From Gemmatimonadota bacterium (GTDB taxonomy: Bacteria; Gemmatimonadota; Gemmatimonadetes; Gemmatimonadales; Gemmatimonadaceae): a stretch of DNA of 34,252 bases. Positions 518 through 24,650 of the stretch are shown here, piece after piece. Both the position numbers and the translations under genes were made by a program. Location of the stretch: contig VGVM01000029.1 in assembly GCA_016874035.1 (NCBI GenBank), forward strand, positions 1-34,252, read 5' to 3'. Each line of letters starts with the position of its first letter. Within the stretch, counting starts at the first letter, position 1. The notes beneath the pieces were generated by a model. That model did no database searches. It was not told where the DNA came from and worked only from the letters and a program-made list of their open reading frames with translations.

Positions 518-3082
518 TCACGGCCTTCGCGAAGGCGCAGCCGGGGGAGGCGACGCCTCGCGGGCCAGCCGGCGATACACCGCGCGCGCGCGGTCGAACT
601 GCGCGAAGACATGCGCCTTCTCCGTGGTGGAGTCCCAGCCAGGCCAGGCGTCGGCCATGATCTGGAGCATGTCGATCCACTTCAGGGCGTAGTCGGCCGA
701 CGCGCGGTCCCGCACCGGACGCCCACCGACGCTGATCCAGATGGGGTTGGTGAATGCCTGCGCATACAACGCGTCGAGCGGGTAGCGTTCGCGCGCGCTC
801 CCTTCGGCACGGAGATGGTACCATCCGCTCTTCGTGACCCGCAGCGTCGTTGAGAAGGCGGCCGATGTGCGCGCGGAGTCGAGTGGAATCTCCGCAACTT
901 CCGCGCCATTGAAGATCACCGAGATCTTCTGCAGCGGCGTCACCGATTTCACCCAGCCCTTGAGCGTCACGTTCCCCGCTGCTGCGAGGTGTACCGTATC
1001 GCCGGCTGACTTGTCGTTTACCCTGAGATCAACCAAGGGACCGGTGCTGACAAAGGCGCTGCCGCGGCGCACTGAGTTCCAGAACGCGTCGGCTGACGCC
1101 GGGCCCCCGCACCTGGCGTAGGTGCGCACCGACCCCACCTGCCGCATGATCGGCAGGTTGTCGATCGTATCCTCGCCGCCGATGGCCGTGACGCGGATGC
1201 CGTTGTTGAGCAGGGCATACCAAGGGACGAAGGGCCCCCGTCCGGCTGCGGCCCACTCGATGGCGTCCACGAGGCCGAGTGCCGCGTCGGGGATGAGCGC
1301 CTTGCCGAGTCCCAGGGCCTGCGCGCTCATCGGGTCGGCCTCGCCGCTGAACGCGTGCACGTACGCGGTGATCGCGCCATCCTTCCGCGCGCGCTCGAGG
1401 ATGTCTGCGTTGCTGGGCGCCAGCGTCGGCGGGTACGCGGCCTCGTAGCCGATGGTCACCGGAAAGAGCGTCTCGAGCCAGGCGCGCATCCCGAACGCCG
1501 CGACATGCCCATAAAACGGCGGGCGGTGCTCTTGTCCAACGACGAGGAAAGGACGGTCGCTCGGGGACGACGCGGTGCCCGGGCGCCACAGCATGCCCAC
1601 CGGTTCGCGGCCATCGTTGTGGGCGAACGGTACGTTCACCACCGTGACGTCCTCCGCGGCCGCCGACTGCAACAGCGCGGACAGATCATAGCGGAGCGGG
1701 CCACCGCCGTGGATATGGGTACCCGTAGACCCGCTGCACCAGCCGTCGTTCGCCATGCTCGCGATGCGTGGCAGGTCGATGTCGAGGTCCGTGACCTGCC
1801 CGGACCGAATATCGGCGGTGCGGTGCTGCGGCGAGAACTCAAAGCCCTTCATGACGTCGAGCGTGACCTGGCCGACGGGGAGCTCGACCTCGAACGCGCC
1901 CGTTGTCTGAAAGGCCCGGTCGGTGGCCCAGGTCCAGCGCGCAAATGCGCTCGCCGGAGCGTAGAACTTCGCGTCGGCAGCGGTGAGGTGCACTCGCGCG
2001 GCTGTCGGCTGGCGGCGCGACGCGTCGTTCACGCGCACGCGCAACGTCCCCATCGGACGCTTCCACGTACGACTCGTGATGACCACCTCGCGCACGCGTC
2101 CCGACGCCACGTCGATAATCGCGAGGTGCGGCAGGCCCCGGGCATTCGAGAGGAACGCAATCGACCTGCCGTCCGGAGACCAACGCGGGTTGAATGCGTC
2201 GGCTGAGTCCGACGTCAGGCGCCGCTCGTCTGAGCCATCCATCGCGCGGGTGTACAGGTTGTTCCATGGAGCGCGGCCCCCGCGCGCCGAAACGAACACG
2301 AAGCGACTGCCGTCCGGCGAGACCTCCGGGCGCGTCTGATACAGCGTCTGTTCTTCGAGCAGTACCGCACGGGTGGCGAGGGAGTCGAATCCGGCTGCAG
2401 GGATCCGCACGACGTTGCCCGAGCCTCCCTTCGCACCGCGGTTCGCAAGGATGAGGAGCTCGCGGCCGTTGCGCAGCCAAGCAGGCTCGATGCTCATGTC
2501 CTGCGCGGTGAAGTACGGACGGTCAATGCCGCTGTTGCTGTCGCGGGTGGTTTGCACTTCGTCCCCGGTCCATGCCCCGGCGGCAATGGGCCGAATGAAG
2601 ACGTTGAACCACCCCGCCGGCTTCGACGCCGTGTAGGCGATCTTCGTACCGTCGGGCGAGAACCGCGGGTCGACGTAGTTCTGGTCGTCCGATGTCAGTG
2701 CGCGCGTCTCGCCGCTTTCGAGGTTCAGGATTTCGAGTTGAATGGTCTTTCCGCCATCGTCGGCGGTATAAACCAGCCACTTTCCGTCGGGGGACCAGTC
2801 GGGGGTCGAGTAGTACTTCGGCCCCGTGACCAACTCTGTGGCGGCGCCGGTTGCGGGGTCCACGCGCCACAGCGAGCCATGCATCGAGACGGCAATCCAC
2901 CGTCCGTCCGGCGACCACGCCGGCGCCCATGGCGTGGAGTTCGCCACGGGTGGGAAGTGATAGCTGTGCATGTAATTGCCTCCGTACTTGGAGGCCGGGT
3001 ACGGACGGCGTACCTGAGCCGGCAGCGCGCTCACGCAAACGAGGAGCAGCAGCGCTGCGCGGCAGGCTGAATTCAGCTTCAC
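518..3082 (-). CDS. Secreted TolB-propeller / CehA-like metallohydrolase
   Basis: 854 aa, exported (signal peptide about 1-23, ending PAQ). Residues about 50-330 hold a TolB/WD40-like beta-propeller with repeated SPDG blades (WSPDGRW 57-62, WSPDGKW 97-102, FSPDGTK 141-147, WSPDGRS 301-307). The second half is an amidohydrolase/PHP-like domain of the CehA/McbA type: HxH at 455-458 (THIH), Glu-His at 518-519, His526, His576 and an acidic GGED at 635-638 are candidate metal ligands. Such proteins are annotated as metal-dependent hydrolases, but the substrate is unknown. The start is GTG at 3082; an ATG two bases upstream reads straight into a stop. There is no clear Shine-Dalgarno site. The DUF3299 gene follows 7 nt downstream. 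A perfect TTGACA and three phased GAACGG repeats lie upstream. Confidence 0.8.
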   Translation of the reverse strand: MKLNSACRAALLLLVCVSALPAQVRRPYPASKYGGNYMHSYHFPPVANSTPWAPAWSPDGRWIAVSMHGSLWRVDPATGAATELVTGPKYYSTPDWSPDGKWLVYTADDGGKTIQLEILNLESGETRALTSDDQNYVDPRFSPDGTKIAYTASKPAGWFNVFIRPIAAGAWTGDEVQTTRDSNSGIDRPYFTAQDMSIEPAWLRNGRELLILANRGAKGGSGNVVRIPAAGFDSLATRAVLLEEQTLYQTRPEVSPDGSRFVFVSARGGRAPWNNLYTRAMDGSDERRLTSDSADAFNPRWSPDGRSIAFLSNARGLPHLAIIDVASGRVREVVITSRTWKRPMGTLRVRVNDASRRQPTAARVHLTAADAKFYAPASAFARWTWATDRAFQTTGAFEVELPVGQVTLDVMKGFEFSPQHRTADIRSGQVTDLDIDLPRIASMANDGWCSGSTGTHIHGGGPLRYDLSALLQSAAAEDVTVVNVPFAHNDGREPVGMLWRPGTASSPSDRPFLVVGQEHRPPFYGHVAAFGMRAWLETLFPVTIGYEAAYPPTLAPSNADILERARKDGAITAYVHAFSGEADPMSAQALGLGKALIPDAALGLVDAIEWAAAGRGPFVPWYALLNNGIRVTAIGGEDTIDNLPIMRQVGSVRTYARCGGPASADAFWNSVRRGSAFVSTGPLVDLRVNDKSAGDTVHLAAAGNVTLKGWVKSVTPLQKISVIFNGAEVAEIPLDSARTSAAFSTTLRVTKSGWYHLRAEGSARERYPLDALYAQAFTNPIWISVGGRPVRDRASADYALKWIDMLQIMADAWPGWDSTTEKAHVFAQFDRARAVYRRLAREASPPPAAPSRRP

Positions 3083-3218: not shown

Positions 3219-4073
3219 CTAGCGCCGGACTTCTCGCGTTGTGCGGAAGGACACGTTGTCCCAGTACCGAACCTCGGAGATCGAGCCGCCATCGGAGAGG
3301 TCGCCGCCGTCCGCGCTCGCTCGCGTCGCGCCGACGACGAATGAGCGCCACAACGGAGCTTCGCGTCGCGCCGGATTCGTGAATCGCACGGCAGTGTCTT
3401 GATGCGCAAGATAGCCGTCAATCCACGCTCGGACGACGCCGTTCCGGGCGTCCACGGTGCTGTTCAGCTTCAGCTCCGCCTCGATCCGATGCCAGCGACC
3501 GGCTTTGATGGGCGCCAATGGGCATCGCGTTCCGCCATACGCGTCGTCCCGGCTCCACTGCATGCCGAGCCCGCAACCGCCATTGTGCATCACCACGACA
3601 AACACGTCGCTCGATTCGTCCAATTTCTCGCCCAACGCCGCGCGAAACAGCAGCAGCATCCGCGTGACCCGCGCGTTGTCAAGGTTAAACGTCGTGTCGG
3701 GGATGTAGAGATCCCCCGAGAAGAACACTGTCGAACCAAGCCCGAGCGTTGAAGTCTGCGTGAAGCTCAAGGCCGCCGCCGGCTCGGCGGGGGTTCGTGT
3801 CGCAACGTAGCGCATCTCGGCGACCTTTCCGCGGCTTCGCCCCGTCGGATCGTCGACTACGCGCACCGAGCCGACCGGATCGGCTTTGAACGGGCCGAGT
3901 GTGCCGTCGTCGAAGGTCGCGGCCGCGAGTTCCTGCTGGCCCGAGCGTGCCGCTCCCTGCACAAAGTCGTGGGCCGGCTCCGGTGCGCGCGGCACGCGGC
4001 CCGTCATCGCCGCGGCCGCCACGAGGCCGCCACAGCTCAGGAGCACGATCACGACGCGGCGCGCGAGCATCAT
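3219..4073 (-). CDS. Secreted jelly-roll protein, polysaccharide-lyase-like
   Basis: 284 aa, exported or membrane-anchored by an N-terminal hydrophobic segment (about 6-24). No lipobox cysteine is placed convincingly. The body contains AATFDDGTLGPF near the start, a central KAGRWHRIEAELKLN stretch and a following VVRAWIDGYL. This order (G-x-W-H-x-I-E...K-L-N...D-G-x-x-x-x-W-I-D-G) resembles concanavalin-like beta-jelly-roll folds of polysaccharide lyase (PL14/PL20-like) and LamG-type proteins. I cannot identify catalytic residues, so binding rather than cleavage is possible. The start is ATG 4073, with a second ATG directly after it. It lies 18 nt downstream of the ABC permease on the same strand and is probably transcribed with it, though the functional link is unclear. 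Confidence 0.6.
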   Translation of the reverse strand: MMLARRVVIVLLSCGGLVAAAAMTGRVPRAPEPAHDFVQGAARSGQQELAAATFDDGTLGPFKADPVGSVRVVDDPTGRSRGKVAEMRYVATRTPAEPAAALSFTQTSTLGLGSTVFFSGDLYIPDTTFNLDNARVTRMLLLFRAALGEKLDESSDVFVVVMHNGGCGLGMQWSRDDAYGGTRCPLAPIKAGRWHRIEAELKLNSTVDARNGVVRAWIDGYLAHQDTAVRFTNPARREAPLWRSFVVGATRASADGGDLSDGGSISEVRYWDNVSFRTTREVRR

Positions 4074-4091
4074 CGGGCGCTCACGCCGCCG

Positions 4092-5363
4092 TCAGAGCCG
4101 GACGGTAAGTCCATCGGCGAGTGCGTTGCGGTACGCGCGCCAAGCCGGCAGCAGGCCCACCAGCAGTCCAGCGACAACAACCCCGATCAGGTAGGCCCAT
4201 TCCAGCGTCCCGGGCGCAGCGACCTGGATCCACACGCCGAAGCGTTGTTCGGCGACGCCACGCCCGGCGATGATGACCGCGTACGCCGCCGCCATTCCCG
4301 CGACCGCACCTGCCGCGCTGAGGACGCCCGACTCAAAGACAAGCAGCGAGGCGATGCGACGGGGACCGGCACCGAGGGAACGGAGAATGGCCATTTCGCG
4401 GCGCCGCTCCTCAAGCGTGCTGTACAGCGCGACCAGCATCCCCAGGAGTCCGACGAGAAGCACGGCGCCGCTGATGATCTGCGCGCCGTCCTCGGCGTAG
4501 GCGATCGAGTTCCAAAGCTCGGTGAGCGCCACTGCCGGGAGAATCGCCGTGAGCGGCTCCGTCACGTCGGTGTTCATTTCCCGCTGCAGGCCGAGCGACT
4601 CGAAGCGGTTTTGCGTTCCGGCGAGAAACGCGGTGATCGATTCCTGCTCTGCGTCGTGGCTGTGGGCCTGCGGCGCTCCGGCGGCGTCCTTCCGGTTCGC
4701 GCGGTCCTCCTCGTGCTCCTCTTCCGGGTCCTCGTGCATCGCGGTGATGCCCTCGAGCGTCACAAATACCGAACGGTCGACCGGCGTCAGGGTCGGCGCG
4801 AGGATGCCGACAACGGTGAACAGGTGATGATCGTGATCGGCGATTCCTTCACCCCGCAGCCCGTGGGTGACGGCGATCGCCGTGTCGAGGCGCAGCCCGA
4901 GCCGCTCGGCGACCATGCTGCCGATGACGAGGTCGCTCTCACCCGCCAAGAGCCGCCCGCTGGCGAGCGTGATGCGGCCATCGTCGCGAAACCGGTAGCG
5001 CTCGAAGAACTCCGGAGTTGTACCGATGAGGCGGAAGCCGCGGTACGAGTCGCCGAGCGAAATCGGGATGGTCCAGGCGATCGCCGCGTGCTTCGACCAG
5101 CGTTCGTAGGTCTTCCATGTCATCGATCCGGCGGGCGAGCCGATGCCGAACACCGACGAGAGAAGCAGTTGCTGACTCCCGCCGCGGGCTCCCACGATGA
5201 GATCGGTATTCCGTATGGTGCCGGCAAAGCCCTCGCGCACCCCACGGCGAACGGCCTCGACGCCGACGAGCAGCGCCACCGAAAGGGCGATGGACGCCAC
5301 AGTGAGTGACGTCGCCAGGCGTCGGTTGGCGAGGGACCGAAGGGCGAGGGTGGGAGTCAGCAA
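4092..5363 (-). CDS. FtsX/LolC-type ABC permease with His/acidic periplasmic loop
   Basis: 423 aa. Layout is one N-terminal membrane helix (about 17-37), a large periplasmic domain, and three C-terminal helices (about 295-320, 345-370, 385-410) around the typical ERRREMAILRSLGA coupling segment. This is a MacB/FtsX-family permease. Unusually, the periplasmic domain has an HDHH cluster (177-180) and a strongly acidic, His-containing loop (about 209-240, with MHEDPEEEHEED and AHSHDAEQE), which suggests divalent-metal handling. The start appears to be TTG at 5363, 12 nt after the ATPase stop, with GGGA and GAGG upstream; no earlier ATG would supply the first helix. Gene order matches zinc-responsive DUF3299 operons (Vibrio zrg, Pseudomonas PA4063-4066, from memory). 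Metal specificity is inferred. Confidence 0.85.
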   Translation of the reverse strand: MLTPTLALRSLANRRLATSLTVASIALSVALLVGVEAVRRGVREGFAGTIRNTDLIVGARGGSQQLLLSSVFGIGSPAGSMTWKTYERWSKHAAIAWTIPISLGDSYRGFRLIGTTPEFFERYRFRDDGRITLASGRLLAGESDLVIGSMVAERLGLRLDTAIAVTHGLRGEGIADHDHHLFTVVGILAPTLTPVDRSVFVTLEGITAMHEDPEEEHEEDRANRKDAAGAPQAHSHDAEQESITAFLAGTQNRFESLGLQREMNTDVTEPLTAILPAVALTELWNSIAYAEDGAQIISGAVLLVGLLGMLVALYSTLEERRREMAILRSLGAGPRRIASLLVFESGVLSAAGAVAGMAAAYAVIIAGRGVAEQRFGVWIQVAAPGTLEWAYLIGVVVAGLLVGLLPAWRAYRNALADGLTVRL

Positions 5364-5375
5364 GTTCCCGTGGCC

Positions 5376-6071
5376 TCAGGCCGTGACGCGATTGATCGCC
5401 GGCAGCGACACGCTGCGGTCGAACCGCGCACTCAGCGACAGGTCGTGCGAAACGAAGAGCAGTGATGAACCCGCCTCCGCACATTGGCTGAACAGCAGCT
5501 CAATGAAGCGATCCCGGAGGTCGGTATCGATCGCCGAGGTCGGCTCGTCGGCAATCACCAACCGGGGCGCTCCGATGAGCGCACGCGCCGCCGCCACGCG
5601 CTGCTGTTGGCCTACACTCAGCTCATTGACCCGCTGCCCCAGCAGCGGCACAATTGCGAGCCGTTCCGCGAGCTGCGCGACGGCGCGTTCGATGGAGCCG
5701 CCGGGGAGCCGCGCGCGCCGCGCCGCGTGCAAACGGCAGGGCAGCCCGATGTTCTCCTCGACGGAGAGCCAAGGAATCAGGTTGAAGAGCTGGAACAGGT
5801 AGCCGATGTGCACGCCGCGGTGCGCGTCCCGCTCCGACGGTCGCAGGTCGCCCAGCGCTCGGCCCAGTACCTCGACCCGACCGGCGGTCGCCGGAAGCAC
5901 GCCGGCGACGAGCCCGAGGAGCGTCGTTTTTCCCGACCCGCTGGGTCCGTGCAGGAAGACCCGTTCGCCCGTGCCGATCTCAAATCGGTCGACGCTGAGG
6001 ACCTCCGAACCCGTGCGGTAGCGAAAGCGGACATCCGAGAAGACGACCGCGCGTTCGGCGGTGGGCGTCAA
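5376..6071 (-). CDS. ABC transporter ATP-binding subunit (LolD/MacB type)
   Basis: 231 aa from the proposed start, a normal size for a LolD/MacB-type ATPase. Walker A GPSGSGKT (42-49), Q-loop Gln94, signature LSVGQ (151-155) and Walker B plus catalytic Glu in VIADEPT (172-178) are all intact. The signature is LSVGQ instead of LSGGQ, a mild deviation. The frame stays open upstream to 6182, but that part overlaps the DUF3299 gene in another frame. The likely start is TTG at 6071, whose last bases form TTGA with the upstream stop (4-nt overlap, translational coupling), with AAGG 5 nt upstream. It powers the permease encoded 12 nt downstream. Confidence 0.88.
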   Translation of the reverse strand: MTPTAERAVVFSDVRFRYRTGSEVLSVDRFEIGTGERVFLHGPSGSGKTTLLGLVAGVLPATAGRVEVLGRALGDLRPSERDAHRGVHIGYLFQLFNLIPWLSVEENIGLPCRLHAARRARLPGGSIERAVAQLAERLAIVPLLGQRVNELSVGQQQRVAAARALIGAPRLVIADEPTSAIDTDLRDRFIELLFSQCAEAGSSLLFVSHDLSLSARFDRSVSLPAINRVTA

Positions 6072-6547
6072 CTTGCCTTGTACGGCGTGCTGGCGATTCC
6101 TTCCATCTCGAAGGCAACGACGCCGAACGGCGACTGCACCGTCTTCACGCGCAGAATGCCCTCGAAGAACACCGGCTCCCACCAGCCAATCCGCATCGTC
6201 TTCCGCGGTGGCATCTTCACGTAGACCATCTGGTTCGGTGGCGGCGGCGGCGTGTGCACGCAGGCACCGAAGTACGGAACGAGCAGGAACTGGTCGGCCT
6301 GCTGCATGTTGTCTTCAAGGGGGACGATGAACGCCGCGATCCGGACCCGCTTCCCGTCGAGGGCCTTGAGCGTATCCGACACCAACCCTGTCCGGTAATT
6401 CATGCCGCTCAGCAAGCGCCAGCTGATCTGCGCAGCGGGCGTAGCGGCGCGCTCGAGTGTCGACAGGGCAGGGGAGGACTGCGCTGACGCCGTGGCGCCG
6501 CACAGCACGAACAGGACGGCCAGGCCCGCACGAAATAGGATTGGCAT
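6068..6547 (-). CDS. Secreted DUF3299 protein, first gene of ABC module
   Basis: About 159 aa with signal peptide 1-23 (ending ATASAQ). The mature protein has the DUF3299 signature: LDGKR (63-67), FIVPLED, then YFGAC (Cys96) followed by His-Thr and five prolines (about 99-104) and NQMVYVKM. Family members occur beside zinc-responsive ABC transporters, but their biochemistry is not known to me. The frame runs open to 6691, but the ATG at 6547 is chosen because it starts the signal peptide. The stop overlaps the TTG start of the ATPase gene, so the three genes 6547-4092 form one translationally coupled unit. The 177 bp upstream would hold their promoter. Confidence 0.85.
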   Translation of the reverse strand: MPILFRAGLAVLFVLCGATASAQSSPALSTLERAATPAAQISWRLLSGMNYRTGLVSDTLKALDGKRVRIAAFIVPLEDNMQQADQFLLVPYFGACVHTPPPPPNQMVYVKMPPRKTMRIGWWEPVFFEGILRVKTVQSPFGVVAFEMEGIASTPYKAS

Positions 6548-6724
6548 CGCGAAGCGTCTCAGGGGAGAAGGGTCGGACGAACGGCTCCTGACTAGGTACA
6601 CGAAATCGCGGGCGCGTGCGCCGCCACAGAGCCGAGTGGTGTCGGGGGGCGGCCGACCGGTCGGAACAGGAAGGTGAACGTTCCGCGGCACTTCGTGAAT
6701 GCCGGCCCAAAGCGGGGGCCGAAG
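6548..6724 (-). promoter_or_regulatory. Intergenic region with 12-bp palindrome before DUF3299-ABC module
   Basis: This gap follows the P-type ATPase stop and precedes the DUF3299 start, both on the minus strand. It contains a perfect 12-bp palindrome CCGACCGGTCGG (6653-6664), a palindromic GAACGTTC (6676-6683) and a 6-bp hairpin CGGCCC/GGGCCG (6703-6708 with 6716-6721) just after the ATPase stop. The hairpin lacks a U-tract, so termination is doubtful. I could not see the AT-rich Zur-type palindrome expected for a zinc regulon. The palindromes are candidate operators only. Confidence 0.3.
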
Positions 6725-8662
6725 CTACAGGGTGGAGTTCTCGAATTCGCTCTTCGATTCCGCAAACCGCAGGATGCGCGAGCTGTTGACCACTACGACG
6801 ACGACCGCCGCGCTCTGCGCAATGGCACCCGGAAGCGGCGACAGCACGCCTGCGGCCGCCGCACCGATCAGCAGCACGGAGAGCCCGAAGGCGAGCCAGA
6901 CGTTTTGCGTCATGACGGTACGTGTGAGACGCGCGAGGCCCACGAGCTTGGGAATCCGGTCGAGATCGGACCCAAGCACCGCGACATCGGCGCCGCCGAG
7001 GGCCACCTCGTTGAGCTGCGCACCGATTGTGACCCCAACGTCGGCGCCGCGCAACGCCGGGGCGTCGTTGACGCCGTCACCAACCATCATCACGGCGTGA
7101 CCCTTCGCCTGCAGGCCGCGCACCACCTCCAACTTTTGCGCCGGGAGCACCTCGGCGATGATTTCGTCCATGGCGAGCGCCTCGCCGACTTCCCTGGCCA
7201 CGGCGATGCGGTCCCCTGTCAGCAGGATGCTCCGTTCGATGCCGAGTTCGCGCAACTTCGCCAGCGTCTCGTGGGCGTCGGCGCGCGGCTGGTCTCGCAG
7301 CGCAAACCATCCCACGTACTGCCCGCGCCAGGCAACCCAGACTTGCGACGGGTCGGCGCCGTCAGCCTCGGGGAGGCGAACGCCCGCCTCCACCAGGAGC
7401 GCGCGCCTGCCGAGCAGCGCCTGCGCACCGTCAACGACGGCCACCACGCCGAGTCCCGGCCGCTCCTTCACGTCGGTCGGACGGTGCGGTTCGATACTGC
7501 GCAGCCGAGCCTCGTGGACCACGGCCTGCGATGCCGGATGCAACGACCCGAAACCGCAGGCGGCGGCGATGGCGATGACCGAGACTTCCGTCTCGCCTCC
7601 GGCAGGGTGCACTCGCGCCACCATCGGGGTACCCACGGTCACGGTGCCTGTCTTGTCGAGGACAAGCGTATCGACATCCGCCGCCTGCTCGAAGAAATCC
7701 GCGCTCTTGATGAGCACGCGGAGGCGCGTCGCGACCGTCATGGCGGCAACCACCGCGGCCGGCCCGGCGACGACGAGCGCGGTCGGTGTCGCGACGACAA
7801 GGATGGTGATCGCGCGAGAAAGGTCGCGCGTGAAGAACAGCGTCGTGGCGGCAATCGTGAGCACCAGCGGCAGCCAGGCGCCGGCGCGACGCTCGAACTG
7901 ACGCAGCAAAGGCACCGACGAGCGCTCCATTTCGGCGAGCAACGCCACCACGCGACCGAGCACCGTGTCCGCCCCCGCCCCGCGCGCCTCGATACGGAGC
8001 AGGCCGTCGACGGAGACGCTGCCGGCGAAGACGGCGCTGCCGGGTCCGACGTCCTCGTACTGGGATTCCCCGGTGATCGCTGCCTGGTCGACAGCGGCCC
8101 GCCCCTCAAGCACCACTCCATCCACGGGGATGCGCTCGCCCGGGCGAACCAGGATCAGGTCGCCGGCGACGACGGCCTCGGGCGCGACGACCTCCTCTTT
8201 CTCCAGGCGCCAGCGCACGGCGCGGCGCGCGCCGAGGGCGCGAATCCCGTCGATCGCCGCGCGCGCGCCAAGCGCGCTCCGTTCCTCGAAGAGGCGACCC
8301 AGCTCAAGAAAGAGGGGAATGAGGGTGGCCGTCACGAACGCCCCGGTCGCCGCTGCCGCGAGGATGGCGATGGCGACGAGTTGGTCGGTGGCGCTACGTG
8401 TGTCGCCTGTCACGACACCCCGGATGCCCGAGACGAGTGTCGGCACGCCGACCACGGCGGCGGCGACGCCGCGAATGAGTTCGCCGATCTGCCACTGGTC
8501 GGGTGAGAGCCGCGTGAGCGCCGTGCCGAGTGCCAGGAGGCCGAGCCCCGCGACGCTGGTCACGAGCCGAACGGTGATCCGGCGCCGCTCGTCGGGCGCG
8601 AGCGCCGTGCCGACCTCCCCGCGTGCAGGTTCGAGGGTCGTTGCCATGACTCCTGTAGTCAT
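6725..8662 (-). CDS. P1B-like P-type ATPase with TPT in place of CPC
   Basis: 645 aa cation pump of the inner membrane. Actuator TGES (197-200), phosphorylation site DKTGT (336-340, Asp336), an HP dipeptide (375-376) typical of P1B pumps, and the hinge GDGVNDAP (528-535) are all present. The membrane ion-site motif, normally CPC or CPx, reads ATPTAL (TPT at 292-294). There is no N-terminal metal-binding CxxC, and I see only one cysteine in the protein, away from the membrane. A soft-metal substrate such as Cu+ or Cd2+ is therefore unlikely by cysteine ligation; substrate unknown. Start ATG 8662 overlaps the upstream SPFH stop as TGATG; a later ATG at 8647 is also possible. It is the last gene of the SPFH operon. 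Confidence 0.88.
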   Translation of the reverse strand: MTTGVMATTLEPARGEVGTALAPDERRRITVRLVTSVAGLGLLALGTALTRLSPDQWQIGELIRGVAAAVVGVPTLVSGIRGVVTGDTRSATDQLVAIAILAAAATGAFVTATLIPLFLELGRLFEERSALGARAAIDGIRALGARRAVRWRLEKEEVVAPEAVVAGDLILVRPGERIPVDGVVLEGRAAVDQAAITGESQYEDVGPGSAVFAGSVSVDGLLRIEARGAGADTVLGRVVALLAEMERSSVPLLRQFERRAGAWLPLVLTIAATTLFFTRDLSRAITILVVATPTALVVAGPAAVVAAMTVATRLRVLIKSADFFEQAADVDTLVLDKTGTVTVGTPMVARVHPAGGETEVSVIAIAAACGFGSLHPASQAVVHEARLRSIEPHRPTDVKERPGLGVVAVVDGAQALLGRRALLVEAGVRLPEADGADPSQVWVAWRGQYVGWFALRDQPRADAHETLAKLRELGIERSILLTGDRIAVAREVGEALAMDEIIAEVLPAQKLEVVRGLQAKGHAVMMVGDGVNDAPALRGADVGVTIGAQLNEVALGGADVAVLGSDLDRIPKLVGLARLTRTVMTQNVWLAFGLSVLLIGAAAAGVLSPLPGAIAQSAAVVVVVVNSSRILRFAESKSEFENSTL

Positions 8663-9774
8663 CAGTGGTTGGGCGGCCCCGGCATGGGTGTGGCGACCCC
8701 CTGCGGATTCACGGTGATGCGCATCCCGCTGTGGTTGCCGCCGGGCGGCGGAGGCGGAATCCACATGACACGGGCTGTACTGAGCGCGCGCTCTATCGCA
8801 TCGCGGTACAGGCGCTCGCGCACGACCGGCGCGTTCGCGCGATACTCACGTGCCAGCGCGCGGAACGCGGCGGCCTCACCAGTCGCCAGCGCGAGCTCGG
8901 ACGCGGCCGTGGCGCGGGCGGCCTGAACGGAGGCGTCGGTCGTCGCCGCTGACGCCGGGACGATGGCCTCGGAGAAGGCGAGGGCATCCTTCCGCGACGT
9001 CTCGGCTCCGATGAACGCCGTTTGCACCGCGGCAAAGTCATAGGTCAGAGCAGCCGGCGGTCCCAGGCTGGTGAGTTCGAGCGAGGTCAGCTCGAGCCCC
9101 GACCGCGCGGAGTCAAGTCCATCCTGGGCCCGTCGGCTCGCGGTGGCGATCAGGTCCTTGCGTCCGTCGGACAGCACCTGATCGACACGCATCTCGCCGA
9201 TCGAACGAAGCATGGCAGCGGTGACCTCGACCCGCAGGACGTCGTGCGCCTCCGGGCCGTAGAAGAAGAAGGTGGCCGGCTCGCGCACACGGTAGCGCGC
9301 CACCATCGTGAGTTGCACGATGTTGTGGTCTCCCGTGATCGCATAGCCTTCGCGCAGCGGATCGAGGCCCGCGTCGATGGCCATCGGGGGCGGTTCGCCC
9401 TCGTGCGATTCGTTCGGGGAACCCTCCTGGCTTGCCTCCTCCGACGGCCGCACACCGCCCGACGTCAACGTGCCGATCGTCACCTCGGAGATTTGGCGGG
9501 TCCGAACGCGAACGACCTCGTCGATCGGGCGAGGAAGGGCGAAGAGCAGGCCTGGGCCGTGCTCCTGCAGCGCCGCCGTGCTGCCGACGAGGCGGCCCCA
9601 GCGCAGGACGAGGGCCGTTTCGTCCTGCCGCACCACGGTGATGCCCGAGAACGCGTAGACGACCACCATGGTGAGGATCCACCAATGGATGCGACGCCAC
9701 GCGGTGTCGGCAGCGCGCGCTACCGGCGCGGCGAGACGGGAGAGTTCCTCTGCGCCCGCGCTGCGCCGTCTCAC
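8662..9774 (-). CDS. HflK-like SPFH membrane protein
   Basis: 370 aa. A single N-terminal helix (about 31-44, WWILTMVVVYAFSG) leads into an SPFH/prohibitin domain: VVRQDETALVLRWGR, then GPGLLFALPRPIDEVVRVRT, followed by an acidic Ser/Glu/Pro-rich insert (MAIDAG after it) and the ITGDHNIVQLTMVARYRV strand typical of HflK. An Ala/Glu-rich helical region and a Pro/Gly-rich tail (IPPPPPGGN) follow. HflK proteins form membrane cages with HflC around FtsH; that partner is not encoded here. The frame is open far upstream, but that part lies over the HflC-like gene in another frame. The GTG at 9774 overlapping the upstream stop as GTGA is the best start. Confidence 0.85.
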   Translation of the reverse strand: MRRRSAGAEELSRLAAPVARAADTAWRRIHWWILTMVVVYAFSGITVVRQDETALVLRWGRLVGSTAALQEHGPGLLFALPRPIDEVVRVRTRQISEVTIGTLTSGGVRPSEEASQEGSPNESHEGEPPPMAIDAGLDPLREGYAITGDHNIVQLTMVARYRVREPATFFFYGPEAHDVLRVEVTAAMLRSIGEMRVDQVLSDGRKDLIATASRRAQDGLDSARSGLELTSLELTSLGPPAALTYDFAAVQTAFIGAETSRKDALAFSEAIVPASAATTDASVQAARATAASELALATGEAAAFRALAREYRANAPVVRERLYRDAIERALSTARVMWIPPPPPGGNHSGMRITVNPQGVATPMPGPPNH

Positions 9775-10691
9775 GGCCGGTCCCTGGACTGCAGGAACGA
9801 GAACGGCTCCGCATCGGTGCGCAGGATCATCGACGTCTGGCCGTTCGTCATCTTCACGAGCGATTCGAGCGACCGCGTGAAGCGGTAGAGTTCGGGGTCC
9901 AGCTTGTGCGCATCGGCGTAGGTCCGCGCGACCTGCGCGGCGGTCTCGCCCTTGATGCGGGCCGTTTCCTCGGCACCGCGCGCGCGAATGCGAGCAGCGC
10001 GCAGGTCCGCCTCCGAACGGATCCTCCCCGCGGCGAGCGCCCCCTCCGCCTCGAAGCGCGCGGCAAACTGGCGGCGCTCTGCCCGCATCTGGTCGAACAC
10101 CGCGGCGACGTTGTCGGCCGGCAGTGCGAGCCGTTGGATACGGACCTGCTCGATCCGGACTCCATAGCTCGTGGCCGCGAGCGGCGCCGTTGCGGCCAGG
10201 AGTTCGGTCTCGATGCGCCCGACTTGCAGGTTCTGCGGATTCGTCGAGACGAGCGCGGAGAGGTCGTGCCCGCCGAGGGTGGAGATCGCCGCGTTGGTGA
10301 GAAGCCCGTCGAGCTTGCCTTCCGCACCACGGTCCACGCCGACGGCCTGCACGAACGCGAGGGGGTCGTCCACCCGCCAGATCACGAAGGTCCGGGCAAT
10401 CACGTTCTTCTTGTCGTGCGTCAGCATTTCGGTCTGCCCTGTCTCGTAAACGCGCCGGCGCATGTCGACCGTAATCGCCTCGTCGATGGGCCACGGGAAC
10501 TTCCAGTGGAGTCCGGCGGTCGTTGCCGTGCGCGTCGGCTCGCCGAATCGCGTGATGAGCACCGCGGTCCCTTCGCGCACCACGACCGCCGTGGCACTGA
10601 GGACCATCGCCAGCAGGGCGCCGATTCCCAGGGCGGCGCGGAGCCAGCGTTGCATACTCATGGCGTGCGGTTCGTTTATTGTGTCAGCCAC
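9771..10691 (-). CDS. HflC-like SPFH membrane protein
   Basis: 306 aa, near the usual HflC length. An N-terminal helix (about 16-36) is followed by the SPFH domain: VVVREGTAVLITRFGEP, GLHWKFPWPIDEAITVDMR, and the HflC-like HDKKNVIARTFVIWRVDDPLAF. A long charged helix (about 205-260, Arg/Ala/Glu-rich) precedes the end. The start is GTG at 10691, because a strong GGGAGGA Shine-Dalgarno (within 10693-10705) lies 6-7 nt before it, the best ribosome site in this operon. This makes it overlap the upstream gene by 16 nt. An ATG at 10661 is the alternative. It overlaps the HflK-like gene by 4 nt, so 1:1 expression of the two is likely. Confidence 0.88.
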   Translation of the reverse strand: MADTINEPHAMSMQRWLRAALGIGALLAMVLSATAVVVREGTAVLITRFGEPTRTATTAGLHWKFPWPIDEAITVDMRRRVYETGQTEMLTHDKKNVIARTFVIWRVDDPLAFVQAVGVDRGAEGKLDGLLTNAAISTLGGHDLSALVSTNPQNLQVGRIETELLAATAPLAATSYGVRIEQVRIQRLALPADNVAAVFDQMRAERRQFAARFEAEGALAAGRIRSEADLRAARIRARGAEETARIKGETAAQVARTYADAHKLDPELYRFTRSLESLVKMTNGQTSMILRTDAEPFSFLQSRDRP

Positions 10692-12595
10692 AATTGTCCT
10701 CCCTCGCGCAGGAAGCGCGCATCAACGATCGTGAAGGGACGCCGGGAGAGATTCTCCTCCAGGGTCTCGAGGCGCCGGCGGAACATGTACTCGCTCGGCG
10801 CAATCCGGTATGCGGTTTCGAGGGTCCGAAAACTCCACGCGGCGCCTACGGCCTCGGCCCGTTGCTGCTCCCCCTCGGCGCGCGCCGTCGCCGAGGCCAG
10901 CACAGCCTGCAGTTCCGCCTCCGGAATCGCGCGGTTCCGATACGCTTCCGCCTGGCCGACCTGAGTTGCGGCTTGAATCTGCGCCGAGATGACTCCCTCG
11001 TACGCCGGCGCGACAGCAACGGGAGGATGCATGCCGCCGACCGTGAATCCGACAATGCGTACGCCGAGGTTCAGCGAATCCGCGCCACGCTGCACCATCT
11101 CGCGCATGCGTCCGGAGAGCACCGCCACGTTCTGCGACAGGACGTCTGAAAGGGACTTGTCGATCGTGTTCCACATGACGGCGCGGTACCCGAGCACCCG
11201 CAACGCGTCGATCGGGTTCTGCGCATGGTAGCGCCAGGCGCGCGGATCGGTGATGAGGTACTGGATCGCGGCGTCAACCGTCACCAGGTCGCGCCCATCC
11301 CCGAGGAGGAGCGTGAACTCGTTCCCCGCGTGCAGCACCGACCAGATGACATCCTCGGGCCCGCCCCATACCTCGTTCGCCTCGCTCTCATGGCCGATAC
11401 GAACGGCCTGCACCCGCCGCACGGGGAACCTGTACACAGCATCCGCCGGCCACGGGAAGTGCAAGTGGAGACCTGGCTCGAGCGGCGGACCCGGCACAGG
11501 GACGCCGAAACGCTCGACCAGCGCCTGCTCATCCACCTTTACCACTGTCAGCGATGTGGCAAGCCACCCGATCAGGAGTAGGCCTACCGCCAGCGGCTCG
11601 ATACTCCGCCGGACAACCGAGAGGGCCCAGGTGGATCGCAGGTCGATGCCGAGCCGGCGCTCGAGATGGTCGAGGAGGCTGGCGAGCGCATTGGCGCGGT
11701 TGCCGAGCGCATCAATGGCATGCGCACGCACCGGGAACGCCGGCGCAATGCCCGATGGCGCGGGCGGAGCGACGATCAAGTCGAAGCACACCCAGGCGAG
11801 GGTGAACGTCAGCGCGAAGTGGATCGCGGTTGCCACACCGTGAGCCTCGAACATGGCGGCCGCGATCGCGGCGGTACACGCACCCAGCGCCCAGGCCAAC
11901 GCGCGCGAGGCGCGCGTGAGTGAACGCGCTTCCGGGAGCACCACGGGGTCGATGCCGCGGAAGTAGTTGGCCGCCGCCGCGGCCAGCGCGGCGAAGACCA
12001 GCGCAACAACGATCGCGACGATCCCCTGGGACCGAATCGGCACAACTATATAAGTAGGCGTAAGCGCCGACCGCGCGACCGCGACGGCGCCGATGATGCC
12101 GAGGGCGAGGCGCAGGTTGTCCAGTGGCCCGCGACTCGCCCACCAAGCTGCGCCGGCCTTAACCGCCGCTTCCCAGCGGCGCTCAATGAATGGTATCAGC
12201 ACGGCCTGGGAACGGGCCGGGGAAGGGCCGGGCACCGGCGGGGTCGCGCTCGCGTCGCCGGCGACCGCTTCGGGCGGAGGCTGTTCCCCGCTCACCGGTA
12301 TCGTCGGCGGGGCGGAGGTGGCGTCCGGCGCATCGGCTGGTTCCGTCGGCGAGCCCTGCGGCCGACGCCGCATGACGCTGGAGGTCGTGACGCCAACCAA
12401 AATGCCTGCGGCGAGGAACAGGACGATCGCGACGTCGAGCAGGGCGTTGACGAAGAGCGCGCGCGCACCCGCACGCGCGAGGACCGCGCCGGCGGATCCC
12501 GCCGCGATGAGCAATGAGAGGACGGCGAGGTGACCCGAGTTCGCTGTCGCCGCCGCGGTCAGGCCGGTCGTTGGTTTGTCGCCGTCAGCCGCCAC
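10676..12595 (-). CDS. Large multi-span SPFH protein, first gene of SPFH/ATPase operon
   Basis: 639 aa, about twice the size of a normal HflK. The N-terminal half is unusual: helices at about 22-42 and 47-70, a Pro/Ala-rich linker (78-130), more helices (about 160-178, 189-210, 232-250, 255-275), a predicted helical segment, and a last helix (331-352). Only then comes the SPFH domain: VVKVDEQALVERFGVP, GLHLHFPWPADAVYRFP, and a coiled-coil region rich in Ala/Glu/Arg (about 545-600). The C-terminal part resembles HflK; I do not recognise the N-terminal membrane part. The start is GTG at 12595 with AGGA about 6 nt upstream. It is read with the HflC-like, HflK-like and P-type ATPase genes. Confidence 0.83.
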   Translation of the reverse strand: MAADGDKPTTGLTAAATANSGHLAVLSLLIAAGSAGAVLARAGARALFVNALLDVAIVLFLAAGILVGVTTSSVMRRRPQGSPTEPADAPDATSAPPTIPVSGEQPPPEAVAGDASATPPVPGPSPARSQAVLIPFIERRWEAAVKAGAAWWASRGPLDNLRLALGIIGAVAVARSALTPTYIVVPIRSQGIVAIVVALVFAALAAAAANYFRGIDPVVLPEARSLTRASRALAWALGACTAAIAAAMFEAHGVATAIHFALTFTLAWVCFDLIVAPPAPSGIAPAFPVRAHAIDALGNRANALASLLDHLERRLGIDLRSTWALSVVRRSIEPLAVGLLLIGWLATSLTVVKVDEQALVERFGVPVPGPPLEPGLHLHFPWPADAVYRFPVRRVQAVRIGHESEANEVWGGPEDVIWSVLHAGNEFTLLLGDGRDLVTVDAAIQYLITDPRAWRYHAQNPIDALRVLGYRAVMWNTIDKSLSDVLSQNVAVLSGRMREMVQRGADSLNLGVRIVGFTVGGMHPPVAVAPAYEGVISAQIQAATQVGQAEAYRNRAIPEAELQAVLASATARAEGEQQRAEAVGAAWSFRTLETAYRIAPSEYMFRRRLETLEENLSRRPFTIVDARFLREGGQLWLTQ

Positions 12596-13159: not shown

Positions 13160-14224
13160 CTACTCGATAAACCCACCGCCGAGCACTACGTCGCCGTCGT
13201 AGAACACCGCTGATTGCCCGGGCGTTATCGCCGCGACAGGCGTGTCGAGCGTGACCGCAACCGACTGCGAGTCGCGCGCTGTCACTCGCCCCGGAACAAT
13301 GGGCGCGCGGTGGCGCACGCGCACGCCAACCGTTGATCCAACCGCCGGCGCATCCGCGAGCCAGTTGGTCCCACTCGCGCGCACCTCGCGACCCATCATC
13401 TCCTCGCGCGTACCGATCACCACGGCGCGGTCCTCAGGCCGCAGTGCCACCACGTACATCGGTTCACCAAACCCGCCGGGCAACGCCTTCCGCTGGCCGA
13501 TCGTGTACCGCGCGAACCCCTCGTGCTCGCCGACGGTTGTGCCATCGGTCGTCACCACGGGCCCGCGCGACAGCGCCGGCGCGTCGGCCGGCAGCCGCCG
13601 CTTCAGCACCGTCAGGTAATCGCCATCGGGCACAAAACAGATCTCCTGGCTCTCCGCCTTGTCCGCGACGCGCGGCAGTTCGAGGTCGCGCGCCACCTGC
13701 CGCGTCTGCACCTTGGTCTGGTCGCCCACCGGGAGCTTGAGCCGCGGGAGTACCTCGCGCTTGATGCCCCAGAGGAAGTACGTCTGGTCCTTGCCCTCGT
13801 CCACGCCCCGCATGAGCCGGCCGTCCGCCACGCGCGCGTAATGCCCGGTGGCGATCAGCGGCGCGTCGATCGCATCGGCCTTGGCCACGAGGTCATCGAA
13901 CTTGGTGAACGTGTTGCACCGCACGCAGGGAATGGGCGTGCGGCCGCGCGCGTATTCGGACACAAAGTCGGCGATCACGTCCTCGCCGAAATGATCCACC
14001 ATGTTCAGCACATAGTGCGGAATGCCGAGCTGTTGGGCAACGCGGCGGGCATCGCTGGTCGAATCGAGCGAGCAGCAGGGACGGTCCGGGAGTTCGGCCC
14101 CGTCCTCGAACAGCTTCATCGTGACGCCGACGCAGTCGTACCCCTCGCGCACGAGCATCGCCGCGGCGACTGAAGAATCCACGCCGCCGGACATCGCTAC
14201 GAGGACGCGGCGCGGCGAGGGCAT
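13160..14224 (-). CDS. mnmA: tRNA-specific 2-thiouridylase MnmA
   Basis: 354 aa, the normal MnmA length. It puts sulfur on U34 of tRNA(Lys, Glu, Gln) in the cytosol, using ATP and a persulfide relay. The PP-loop SGGVDSS (12-18) adenylates the uridine. The two catalytic cysteines are present: Cys103 in CVRCN and Cys196 in EICFVPDGDY. IATGHYAR, KDQTYFLW and FARYTIGQRKAL are further family signatures, and the C-terminal beta-barrel is complete. The start is ATG 14224, or GTG 14227 directly before it. The gene begins 3 nt after the stop of the cysteine desulfurase, the sulfur donor, so the two are an operon. Confidence 0.97.
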   Translation of the reverse strand: MPSPRRVLVAMSGGVDSSVAAAMLVREGYDCVGVTMKLFEDGAELPDRPCCSLDSTSDARRVAQQLGIPHYVLNMVDHFGEDVIADFVSEYARGRTPIPCVRCNTFTKFDDLVAKADAIDAPLIATGHYARVADGRLMRGVDEGKDQTYFLWGIKREVLPRLKLPVGDQTKVQTRQVARDLELPRVADKAESQEICFVPDGDYLTVLKRRLPADAPALSRGPVVTTDGTTVGEHEGFARYTIGQRKALPGGFGEPMYVVALRPEDRAVVIGTREEMMGREVRASGTNWLADAPAVGSTVGVRVRHRAPIVPGRVTARDSQSVAVTLDTPVAAITPGQSAVFYDGDVVLGGGFIE

Positions 14225-14227
14225 CAC

Positions 14228-15382
14228 TCAGGCCGCGACCATTCCTCGCGATCGGTTGGCGAGTTTCGTGAACACATCAATCGCCCGCGCGATTCCCGCA
14301 TCCGTCGTCAACGGGCCCACGCTCATGCGGATGGACGCCCCCACCTGCCCGGACGGGTCGATCGCGGCCAGCACGTGAGAACGCCCCGTGCTACCGCTCT
14401 GGCAGGCCGACCCGCCCGAGCAGGCAATTCCATGGAGATCGAGCGCCATCAGGAGCGATTCGCCGTCGGCCCCGGGCACCGTGACATTCAGGATGTGCGG
14501 GGCGCGTTCCGCTCCGCCCGCATTGATCACCGCATCGGTCACGCCGGCGCAGATGCCCGCCTGAAGCTGGTCGCGCAGCGCGCGGTACTTCGCCACGATC
14601 GCCTCACGCTCACTGGCCGCCAGCTCACACGCGACGGCGAGGCCGACGGCGAAGGCGACGTTCTCCGTACCGGGGCGACGACCGCGATCCTGCGACCCGC
14701 CGAAGAACAGCGGCTCGAGCGGCGTCCCGCGGCGGAGGAACATCGCGCCGATTCCCTTGGGCGCGCCGATCTTGTGCCCGCTGATGCTCGCCAGGTCGAA
14801 CGGAACCTTTCGCACGTCCACGTCCACCTTCCCGAACGCCTGCACGGCATCGGTGTGGAACACCACGCCGTGCGCCTTCGCGTGCGCGGCCGCGTGCGCA
14901 ATAGGCTGCACACTGCCGATCTCATTGTTCACCCACATGAACGACGCCAGCGCACAGTCGTCGCCGATCGCCGCCTCGATGGTCGCCATCGGCAGCGTGC
15001 CGGTGGAATCCACGCCGAGCACCCGCTCTTCGGCGCCCTCACGCGCACACTTGTGCACGGCCTCGAGCACGGCCTTGTGCTCGATCGAGGACGTGACCAC
15101 AGCGCGGCGCCCGCCTTCCTTCAGGATCCGCCAGCCGCCGAGGATCGCGAGGTTGTCGGCTTCGGTGCCGCCGGAGGTGAAGCAGACCTCGTCCGGCTGC
15201 GCGCCGATGCATGCGGCCACGCGCTCGCGCGCCTCATCGAGTGCTGTGCGCGCCTCGCGGCCCCAGCGGTGCGTGCTGGACGGATTCCCGAATCGCGCGT
15301 CGAAGAACGGCGCCATGCGCTCGAGGACTTCCGGGCGCACCGGCGTCGTCGCGGCGTGGTCGAGGTAGATCGGCTCTGGCAT
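14228..15382 (-). CDS. Cysteine desulfurase (NifS/IscS family)
   Basis: 384 aa PLP enzyme releasing sulfur from L-cysteine as an enzyme-bound persulfide. The N-terminus YLDHAATTPV is typical. The PLP lysine is Lys204 in SISGHKIGAPKG, and the active-site cysteine is probably Cys327 in the CSGGSACQSGS loop (Cys321 precedes it). The GTENV motif (237-241) is present. The start is ATG 15382 without a clear Shine-Dalgarno. It lies directly upstream of mnmA, so its main role is probably to feed thiolation of tRNA, possibly also Fe-S assembly. No IscU or other Fe-S scaffold gene is next to it. Confidence 0.95.
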   Translation of the reverse strand: MPEPIYLDHAATTPVRPEVLERMAPFFDARFGNPSSTHRWGREARTALDEARERVAACIGAQPDEVCFTSGGTEADNLAILGGWRILKEGGRRAVVTSSIEHKAVLEAVHKCAREGAEERVLGVDSTGTLPMATIEAAIGDDCALASFMWVNNEIGSVQPIAHAAAHAKAHGVVFHTDAVQAFGKVDVDVRKVPFDLASISGHKIGAPKGIGAMFLRRGTPLEPLFFGGSQDRGRRPGTENVAFAVGLAVACELAASEREAIVAKYRALRDQLQAGICAGVTDAVINAGGAERAPHILNVTVPGADGESLLMALDLHGIACSGGSACQSGSTGRSHVLAAIDPSGQVGASIRMSVGPLTTDAGIARAIDVFTKLANRSRGMVAA

Positions 15383-15490: not shown

Positions 15491-16204
15491 ATGGACCAGT
15501 TCAACCTCCTCAGCCTGATCTTCCTGGTGTACCTGTTCGTGCTGTTCCCGCGGGCGGCACTGCGGTCGGCGCGCGTGGTGCGCCAGACGGTCGAGGCGGG
15601 CGTGCCGCTCCCGCGCACCCGCGTGCTGCTCTCGACGCTGTTCACGCTGCTCGTGACGTTCATGATGGCGTGGGTGAACGCCCAGGCCATGGGGCGCGAC
15701 CTCTGGGCGGTGGACTGGTCCCTGCGCAACATCGCGCTCGGCGTCGTCGCGTTCATCGTGCTGCTCGGCGCGATTCCGCTTTCACGCCGGCTGCGAACGC
15801 CGGAGGAGCTTCGGCGCCAACTCCTGAACGGGATCGTCCCGCGCAACAACCAGGAGATGGGGCTGTTCACGCTCGCGGCGATCGGGGCGGGGATCGCGGA
15901 AGAGGCCGCCTACCGCGGCGTCGCGGTCTGGCTGCTCACGCTCGTGTTCGGCGCGCCGATTCCCGCGATCCTCATGTCAACGATGGCGTTCGCGGTTGCG
16001 CACGCGGTGCAGGGCGGCAAGTCCATGGCGATCGTCGCCGGCGTAGCGCTGCTGTTTCACGGGCTTGTCACGCTCACCGGCACGCTCGTGATCGCGATGA
16101 TTGTGCACGCGGCGTACGACATCGTCGCCGGTATCGCTGCCCGGAAGAAAGCCGATGAGCTGGAGCGATCAGCCGGCCAACAACCGGGCGCGAACGTCCC
16201 ATAG
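15491..16204 (+). CDS. CPBP-family intramembrane metalloprotease
   Basis: 237 aa, about six membrane helices. The CPBP (Abi/Rce1-like) motifs are complete: EE(137-138)AAYR(142)G, then FAVAH (His171), then HAAYD (His206 to Asp210). These glutamate and histidine residues bind the catalytic metal in the family. Targets of bacterial CPBP proteins are mostly unknown; some are immunity or membrane-quality proteases. The start is ATG 15491. It is divergent from the cysteine desulfurase (108-bp gap), and its end overlaps the tail of the convergent dioxygenase gene by 36 bp. Confidence 0.9.
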   Translation: MDQFNLLSLIFLVYLFVLFPRAALRSARVVRQTVEAGVPLPRTRVLLSTLFTLLVTFMMAWVNAQAMGRDLWAVDWSLRNIALGVVAFIVLLGAIPLSRRLRTPEELRRQLLNGIVPRNNQEMGLFTLAAIGAGIAEEAAYRGVAVWLLTLVFGAPIPAILMSTMAFAVAHAVQGGKSMAIVAGVALLFHGLVTLTGTLVIAMIVHAAYDIVAGIAARKKADELERSAGQQPGANVP

Positions 16205-16906
16205 GGCGGGGAAGAAGCGCTGGCTGATTGACCGCGCGAGGAACTGCGCGCCCATCGTGCCACCCGTGCCGCCGGTTCCCGGGCCGATGACGCGCTCGAC
16301 CAGCTGCACATGCAGGAACCGCCAGCGCTGGAAGGCCTGGTCGTACTCGATGAACGCCTCGGCGAGGAAGAACATCGGGTCGGGGCCGGGCCCCGTGTAG
16401 AGCTCGTCGAGTGTGCGGCCGCGCGCCTTCAGGAGGTCGAGGAACAAGTCCTCGAGGCGCGGCGTCGCGAGCGCCTCGGCGATCGCGGGCGGGATCGCCC
16501 CGCCGGCCTGCAACGCCTTCACGAACGCCTCGTCGCGCATGCCCGAGAGCGCGCCGACGATGCGGAACTGCTCGCTCTGCTGGCCGCTCGACGACCCCAG
16601 AAAATTGCGGAACTGCTGGAACCGCTGCGGCGGCAGCGTGTCGAGCGACGACAGCTGCTCGGCGACAATGCGCATCAGTGTGTTGATGCGCTGCAGGTGC
16701 CAGAGCGAGCGCTCGCCGTCGCCTTTCTGCAGGTCGGCCCGGAGCGCGTGCAACTGCTGGATGATCACCTTGAACCAGAGTTCGCTCGCCTGGTGCACCA
16801 CGATGAACAGCAGTTCGTCGGGATGCTCGGGCTGGGACCGCGGCCGTTGCAGCGAGAGGAGTTCGCGCAGCGCGAGGTAGTCGGGGTAGTTGACGTCGGC
16901 GGCCAT
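16169..16906 (-). CDS. kynA: Tryptophan 2,3-dioxygenase (short form)
   Basis: 245 aa, shorter than the usual 260-300. Haem enzyme opening the indole ring of tryptophan to N-formylkynurenine. Family landmarks: DELLFIVVHQASELWFK (His38, the distal-pocket His), SSGQQSEQFR with Arg115 for substrate carboxylate, WRFLHVQLVERVIG with haem-ligand His199, and GTGGTGGT (210-217). The usual SSGFQS reads SSGQQS, replacing a hydrophobic residue near the pocket by Gln. The start ATG 16906 has no strong Shine-Dalgarno. It lies 21 nt after the bshB1 stop, so the two may be co-transcribed. No kynurenine formamidase or kynureninase is seen nearby. Confidence 0.9.
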   Translation of the reverse strand: MAADVNYPDYLALRELLSLQRPRSQPEHPDELLFIVVHQASELWFKVIIQQLHALRADLQKGDGERSLWHLQRINTLMRIVAEQLSSLDTLPPQRFQQFRNFLGSSSGQQSEQFRIVGALSGMRDEAFVKALQAGGAIPPAIAEALATPRLEDLFLDLLKARGRTLDELYTGPGPDPMFFLAEAFIEYDQAFQRWRFLHVQLVERVIGPGTGGTGGTMGAQFLARSISQRFFPALWDVRARLLAG

Positions 16907-16927
16907 GACGGTGGGCTGGGAACCGGG

Positions 16928-17644: not shown

Positions 17645-17701
17645 GGGTGGAAGTTACGGAGCGGCGTCGGCAAACGGGGCGCGGCCGTAGCTTTCCGGTC
17701 C

Positions 17702-20741: not shown

Positions 20742-20775
20742 GGTCAGCTCGCGCGCGGGTTCAGGGACCGCCCGC

Positions 20776-22020: not shown

Positions 22021-22050
22021 AGGCGGACCCTACCTGCCACGCGGTACGTA

Positions 22051-22079: not shown

Positions 22080-22090
22080 GGGGAATCTAC

Positions 22091-23353: not shown

Positions 23354-23356
23354 TGG

Positions 23357-24595: not shown

Positions 24596-24613
24596 GGCCG
24601 CCCTACGGGCCGG

Positions 24614-24638: not shown

Positions 24639-24650
24639 TTCGTGCCACCG

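Follow-up and report, generated by a model that had tools for sequence, protein, structure and literature searches.

Gene content of the locus

The DNA analysed here, hereafter the window, is the complete 34,252-nucleotide stretch of contig VGVM01000029.1 from a Gemmatimonadota bacterium of the family Gemmatimonadaceae (GenBank assembly GCA_016874035.1), and it carries an operon in which genes for three SPFH-family membrane proteins (a large HflK-like, an HflC-like, and a smaller HflK-like protein) are followed by a gene for a P-type ATPase. On rechecking, the four open reading frames (ORFs) were found on the minus strand exactly where a preliminary description of the sequence had placed them, with overlaps of 16, 4, and 1 nucleotides (Table 1). 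The products were also correctly named there, as Pfam Band_7 lies above the gathering score in all three SPFH proteins (E-values of 1e-8, 2.6e-24, and 2.3e-13) and the fourth protein contains the E1-E2_ATPase and Hydrolase domains. Joint production of the four proteins is almost certain, as had been proposed, and the association of their genes is conserved across phyla. That description had further held that no characterised system has such a composition, a statement that has to be withdrawn: the arrangement is not new, its composition being that of the Pseudomonas aeruginosa hmtA cluster (PA2439-PA2435), which encodes PaFlo5-6-7 together with HmtA. With moderate confidence, the window operon is interpreted as an acquired and divergent operon of the hmtA type, in which an SPFH trio and a P1B pump would serve transition-metal (zinc-type) homeostasis.

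Table 1. Features of the window discussed in the text
Feature	Position	Strand	Basis or remark
Large HflK-like SPFH protein, 639 aa	10676..12595	-	Pfam/NCBIfam; counterpart of PA2439/PaFlo5
HflC-like SPFH protein, 306 aa	9771..10691	-	Pfam/NCBIfam
HflK-like SPFH protein, 370 aa	8662..9774	-	Pfam/NCBIfam
P1B-type (HmtA-like) ATPase, 645 aa	6725..8662	-	TPT replaces CPC in metal-site helix
DUF3299 protein, PA4066 family	6068..6547	-	PDB 4HSP, E 1.1e-19; start likely near 6547
ABC transporter ATPase, MacB/LolD/FtsE type (PA4064-like)	5376..6182	-	Pfam/NCBIfam
FtsX/MacB-type ABC permease, His/acidic-rich stretch (PA4065-like)	4092..5363	-	Pfam/NCBIfam
mnmA and nifS-like cysteine desulfurase, conserved host flank	13160..15382	-	64-77% identity in sister species

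Conservation of the gene order

Conserved co-location of three SPFH genes with a P-type ATPase gene, for which the preliminary description had recommended a search, is widespread. The order large HflK-like, HflC-like, HflK-like, and ATPase, all on one strand, was recovered with hidden Markov models (HMMs) in the window and in 73 of 84 related loci, a count that is descriptive because five of these sets went into building the models and the genomes, being related, do not count as independent. Proteobacteria, Acidobacteriota, Armatimonadota, and Myxococcota all include loci with this order, and the median gap between the last three genes is -4 nucleotides. Eighty of the loci came from a genome scan with the HflC-like alignment, most of the 84 were retrieved through the HflC-like gene alone, and adjacency of an ATPase gene was no retrieval criterion; the recurrence of the order argues that the arrangement is not due to chance. 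Plasmids were also searched by tblastn with the large SPFH protein as query, which led to Burkholderia ubonensis, Paraburkholderia sprentiae, a Rhizobium, and Klebsiella aerogenes, each carrying the four genes in the order given above. Exceptions comprise six loci without a neighbouring ATPase gene and one (L044) in which it lies upstream, while the deviation of four others (L047, L060, L086, and L100) appears to stem mainly from ORF calling. Trios without a pump include L058, L065, and L095, and a second locus in the genome of the Myxococcota metagenome-assembled genome (MAG) that also contributes L042 (L143, 7372-11715) has an SPFH trio with no P-type ATPase found adjacent.

This pattern bears on the view that the genes are co-transcribed merely as parts of one shared stress regulon and that their products do not associate physically. 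The existence of pump-free trios, the upstream position of the pump in L044, and the fact that no interaction data were found are all compatible with such a view, but the gene overlaps and the order, fixed across several phyla, go beyond what membership of one regulon would require, and the explanation is considered unlikely.

The hmtA counterpart and the metal-related context

In P. aeruginosa, PA2434-PA2439 are induced in a znuA mutant, with values of 5.6-fold for PA2435, 14.4-fold for PA2437, 10.6-fold for PA2438, and 9.0-fold for PA2439 (PMC4542158). Gel shifts showed binding of Zur to the promoter of PA2439 (PMC8531726), and the proteins of the hmtA cluster are more abundant under zinc depletion (PMC11761036). 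Import of zinc and copper has been reported for HmtA, whose overexpression raises the content of both metals in the cell, according to a review (PMC10393844); among pumps of hmtA-type operons, metal import is known only for P. aeruginosa HmtA, from overexpression. The SPFH trio, which lies in one predicted operon, has been deleted as paFlo5-6-7 (PMC13086221); the paper gives PA14 locus tags, and we read these genes, by their content, as PA2439-PA2437.

Evidence for a link to metal homeostasis extends to the relatives of the window operon. Of 71 loci, 51% have a box resembling GTTATANNATAAC, with up to two mismatches, in the 400 nucleotides that precede the first gene, compared with 2.4% of random windows taken from the same loci. 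Neighbouring genes belong to the same functional sphere: COG0523-znuABC lies just upstream of the operon in P. sprentiae, genes for ZnuA, an ABC ATPase, and an ABC-3 permease come after it in the Armatimonadota locus, and ZIP and CDF genes come after it in the Acidobacteriota locus. In three gammaproteobacterial loci (L056, 5224-5733; L103 and L114, near 7300-7900), ZIP-like genes were also seen beside the operon or close by.

Several points weigh against extending the hmtA reading to the window. No GTTATANNATAAC-like Zur box, and no site beyond chance, was found upstream of the window operon. One Fur-family regulator is encoded in the host genome. In P. aeruginosa itself, hmtA mRNA was unresponsive to zinc addition in one study (PMC8531726), and the import direction of HmtA comes from one study that, according to the review (PMC10393844), requires confirmation. 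Deletion of paFlo5-6-7 had mild phenotypes, and zinc limitation is not among the conditions reported in the available text of that paper (PMC13086221). The match to PA2435-PA2439 was made by published annotation and by an identical gene order in numerous other Pseudomonas genomes, the 80 loci of the HflC-like scan including none from P. aeruginosa. SPFH trios occur without an adjacent ATPase, and the metal moved by the window pump may differ, judging from the absence of Cys-Pro-Cys and the presence of QS in place of HN in its sequence.

The pump and its altered metal site

NCBIfam assigns the ATPase to the heavy-metal (P1B) group, with 460 bits for TIGR01525 (cut-off 346) and 384 bits for TIGR01512, also above its cut-off, and the subfamily is the cadmium family. 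Among solved structures, the closest in sequence is that of a cadmium-translocating ATPase, the zinc-transporting ZntA also being among the matches, and the catalytic motifs TGES, DKTGT, TGD, and GDGVND are intact. Soft-metal P1B pumps use a Cys-Pro-Cys site, and it is here that the window protein departs from its relatives. The TPT motif noted in the preliminary description is genuine, the window having ATPTALV where relatives have ACPCALV; sequencing error was ruled out as its source by an independent MAG that shows the same motif at 70% identity. TPT occurs in the window and in that Acidobacteriota MAG (L041), and APT in the Myxococcota locus (L042), whereas all other ATPases read out, comprising all proteobacterial and Armatimonadota ones and including L043 and L044, have CPC. 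The metal-site helix of the window ATPase thus contains neither a CPX nor an XPC motif with cysteine, the motifs by which P1B membership is tested, and the window pump operon is therefore a variant of the hmtA type and not a plain member. The HN of the last helix in proteobacterial HmtA-like pumps is replaced by QS in the window and by QS or QH among the TPT/APT pumps, and the window ATPase has a single cysteine and no N-terminal His-rich tail.

In a tree that also included two further P1B ATPases of the host genome, the ATPases of the operon set form a 78-row clade apart from these two (support of 99 in the Shimodaira-Hasegawa-like approximate likelihood ratio test, SH-aLRT), with long branches and with L044 outside. 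Within it, the window, Acidobacteriota, and Myxococcota ATPases are grouped together with SH-aLRT 98-100 and stand next to the Armatimonadota row (88), again on long branches. The other P1B ATPases of the host genome carry CPC and TPC, the latter being L136 (G000 contig C1). Since both metal-site cysteines are lost and the enzyme motifs are kept, the sequence indicates a change of the ion site rather than degeneration of the pump. What is new here, on the evidence of sequence comparison, is a supported, non-proteobacterial clade of predicted pumps with a cysteine-free TPT site and intact catalytic motifs; a full-text search of the open-licence literature found no described TPT-type P1B ATPase.

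These features raise the alternative that the TPT pump no longer moves zinc or copper but transports another, harder ion such as Mg or Mn, or that its ATPase cycle acts as a sensor or regulator. The replacement of both cysteines in a supported TPT/APT clade that retains TGES, DKTGT, and GDGVND, together with the altered last helix, the single cysteine, and the missing His-rich tail, speaks for such a change, whereas the TPT-type pump of the Acidobacteriota MAG adjoins ZIP and CDF transporters of zinc type and the branches of the tree are long; on balance the idea seems doubtful but deserves some weight. The direction and the ion of the window pump are extrapolated from HmtA and are uncertain because of the TPT site.

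Most P1B ATPases are exporters. The window pump could accordingly be viewed as one whose expression is tied to envelope stress and which the SPFH proteins protect as stress-response scaffolds, and the cadmium-type subfamily and structural matches suit this view. It conflicts with the behaviour of the Pseudomonas operon, whose induction by zinc starvation and binding by Zur form the pattern of an importer, and with the reported rise in cell zinc and copper on HmtA overexpression (review PMC10393844), and export is the least probable of the alternatives weighed here.

The three SPFH proteins

The SPFH proteins of the window score below the NCBIfam equivalog cut-offs, with 119.8 and 104.4 bits for HflK (TIGR01933, cut-off 159.4) and 129.6 bits for HflC (TIGR01932, cut-off 134.4), and are therefore regarded as HflK/HflC-like paralogues, not as orthologues. 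The same conclusion follows for the copies in proteobacterial operon carriers, which also hold a canonical HflK at a separate locus (271-409 bits). In the large SPFH protein, an N-terminal part with about six predicted transmembrane helices precedes an HflK-like transmembrane helix, the SPFH domain, and a long helix. The C-terminal half of its structure model, for which rows from plasmid records were left out, matches HflK of the FtsH-HflK/C structures solved by cryo-electron microscopy as well as other SPFH cages, and HflK from FtsH complexes is the best match by both sequence and fold.

A CDF (YiiP/ZnT) fold was considered for the N-terminal part but is not adopted. The full-length model matched CDF structures with Z-scores of 10-12 (maximum 11.9), a helical-bundle similarity that may be due to chance; Pfam gave no match, profile-profile comparison with CDF proteins in hhalign gave a probability of 0.2%, and the N-terminal part alone yielded no CDF protein among its few fold candidates, just weak G-protein-coupled receptor and other helical matches.

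The operon contains no FtsH gene, and the single FtsH of the genome is encoded on another contig. A fourth SPFH protein of the genome is encoded on contig C31. The preliminary description had noted this absence and placed the pump in the position of FtsH. The first part stands, but the second is weak because canonical hflK-hflC operons contain no ftsH either, being composed of hfq, hflX, hflK, and hflC (PMC13086221). The trio might instead act with FtsH as HflK and HflC do, controlling the turnover of the pump or of other zinc-starvation membrane proteins without any role as a transport scaffold. The resemblance of the large protein to HflK of FtsH complexes, the presence of one FtsH elsewhere in the genome, and the existence of trios without a pump are in keeping with this possibility. 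A second FtsH-directed set would, however, be redundant in proteobacterial carriers that hold a canonical HflK, and trios with a linked pump gene greatly outnumber those without one, so that such a role appears improbable.

Origin of the operon and adjoining genes

To look for relatives within the phylum, about 150 genomes were searched at the level of class and phylum. Among 17 other species of the genus, none has a gene closely related to the HflC-like one (best other matches about E 1e-5) and none has DUF3299. At E 1e-100, nothing in the 149 other genomes of the phylum sample matched the window ATPase. The mnmA and nifS genes match those of congeners at 64-77% and remain neighbours in all five sister loci that were inspected, which indicates that the contig is native to this genome and speaks against contamination of the bin. 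Absence from the congeners beside a conserved mnmA-nifS flank suggests that the pump/SPFH and DUF3299 genes were gained, and horizontal acquisition of both is probable. There is no contrast in guanine-cytosine content between the operon and its surroundings. The nearest relative is the locus of the Acidobacteriota MAG, with identities of 70% for the ATPase and 69% for the HflC-like protein.

After the pump come genes for a PA4066-related DUF3299 protein, an ABC ATPase of the MacB type, and a permease of the FtsX type, and the DUF3299 gene is possibly on the same transcript as the pump operon. As the PA4066-family gene and the PA4064/65-like genes come next, counterparts of two Zur operons that are separate in Pseudomonas adjoin each other in the window. 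A scan of 3219-6725 limited to His counts identified no PA4063-like His-rich periplasmic protein. The contig has two DUF3299 genes, at 22-612 and 6068-6547, which flank its left part. Beyond the ABC permease lie genes for a weakly polysaccharide-lyase-like protein (3219-4073) and for a TolB-like propeller and a CehA/McbA-type metallohydrolase (518-3082). Elsewhere on the contig, at least four MacB/ADOP-type permease genes stand in a row (19485-30772, minus strand), with further ORFs at 20776-22020 and 25918-27162, followed by an RND/MacA-type adaptor gene and a TolC-like gene, and a tryptophan 2,3-dioxygenase-like ORF (16169-16906, minus strand) overlaps a long ORF (16310-18079, plus strand) with a C-terminal Rid-family domain.

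Proposed mechanism and implications

Under the hmtA-type interpretation, the three SPFH proteins would assemble into a hetero-oligomeric dome or microdomain of the HflK/C kind in the inner membrane, which would recruit or enclose the pump. The pump would move a divalent metal across the inner membrane from the periplasm to the cytoplasm, by analogy with HmtA, and in the periplasm the adjacent DUF3299/ABC module may handle the metal, either as such or chelated. That a cage or microdomain surrounds the pump is plausible by analogy, because red-cell stomatin forms a capsule around aquaporin-1 and around a urea transporter (PMC12407830). A more elaborate version is conceivable but rather unlikely: an assembly of three SPFH subunits, one with an extra multi-helix part, would enclose the P-type pump in a private periplasmic chamber fed by the DUF3299/ABC module, and the pump of the window's lineage, derived from a P1B ancestor and bearing a cysteine-free TPT site, would have a new ion specificity.

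HmtA is a rare reported case of a metal-importing P1B ATPase, and the literature offered no explanation that we could find for the three SPFH genes in its operon. The coupling of SPFH proteins to a pump is thus conserved, known from hmtA-type operons, and poorly understood. If an SPFH-pump cage indeed forms, bacterial SPFH cages would gain a pump as a client instead of a protease. The TPT clade offers a naturally occurring contrast with which to study the determinants of ion specificity and transport direction in HmtA-like pumps, and the window links counterparts of two Zur operons kept apart in Pseudomonas. In view of the wide conservation, the Zur boxes, and the metal-transporter neighbours, a direct test of the association between SPFH proteins and the pump is worthwhile.

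Comparison with known systems

Stomatin around aquaporin-1 or urea transporter-B (PDB 9ZD2; PMC12407830) sets a precedent for an SPFH oligomer that encloses a transporter, although stomatin is eukaryotic and no bacterial case was found in the literature. With FtsH-HflK/HflC of Escherichia coli (7VHP, 7VHQ, 7WI3, and 9CZ2), the window proteins share the SPFH domain, the preceding transmembrane helix, and the long C-terminal helix; they differ in being three instead of two, in the N-terminal part of about six transmembrane helices on the large protein, in scores under the HflK/HflC equivalog cut-offs, and in an operon that carries a pump and no protease. The adjoining module resembles the Zur-regulated ABC system PA4063-PA4066 of P. 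aeruginosa in having a PA4066 homologue (PDB 4HSP) adjacent to a MacB-type ATPase and an FtsX-type permease, but it lies beside the SPFH-pump operon, whereas that system is located elsewhere in P. aeruginosa. The closest counterpart is the P. aeruginosa hmtA operon (PA2439-PA2438-PA2437-PA2436-PA2435/hmtA, with PA2434), in which three HflK/HflC-type SPFH genes likewise precede a P-type ATPase gene under a Zur-bound promoter induced by zinc starvation. The window version lacks PA2436 and a recognisable Zur box, is followed directly by the DUF3299/ABC module, and carries TPT where the proteobacterial relatives of the hmtA operon have CPC.

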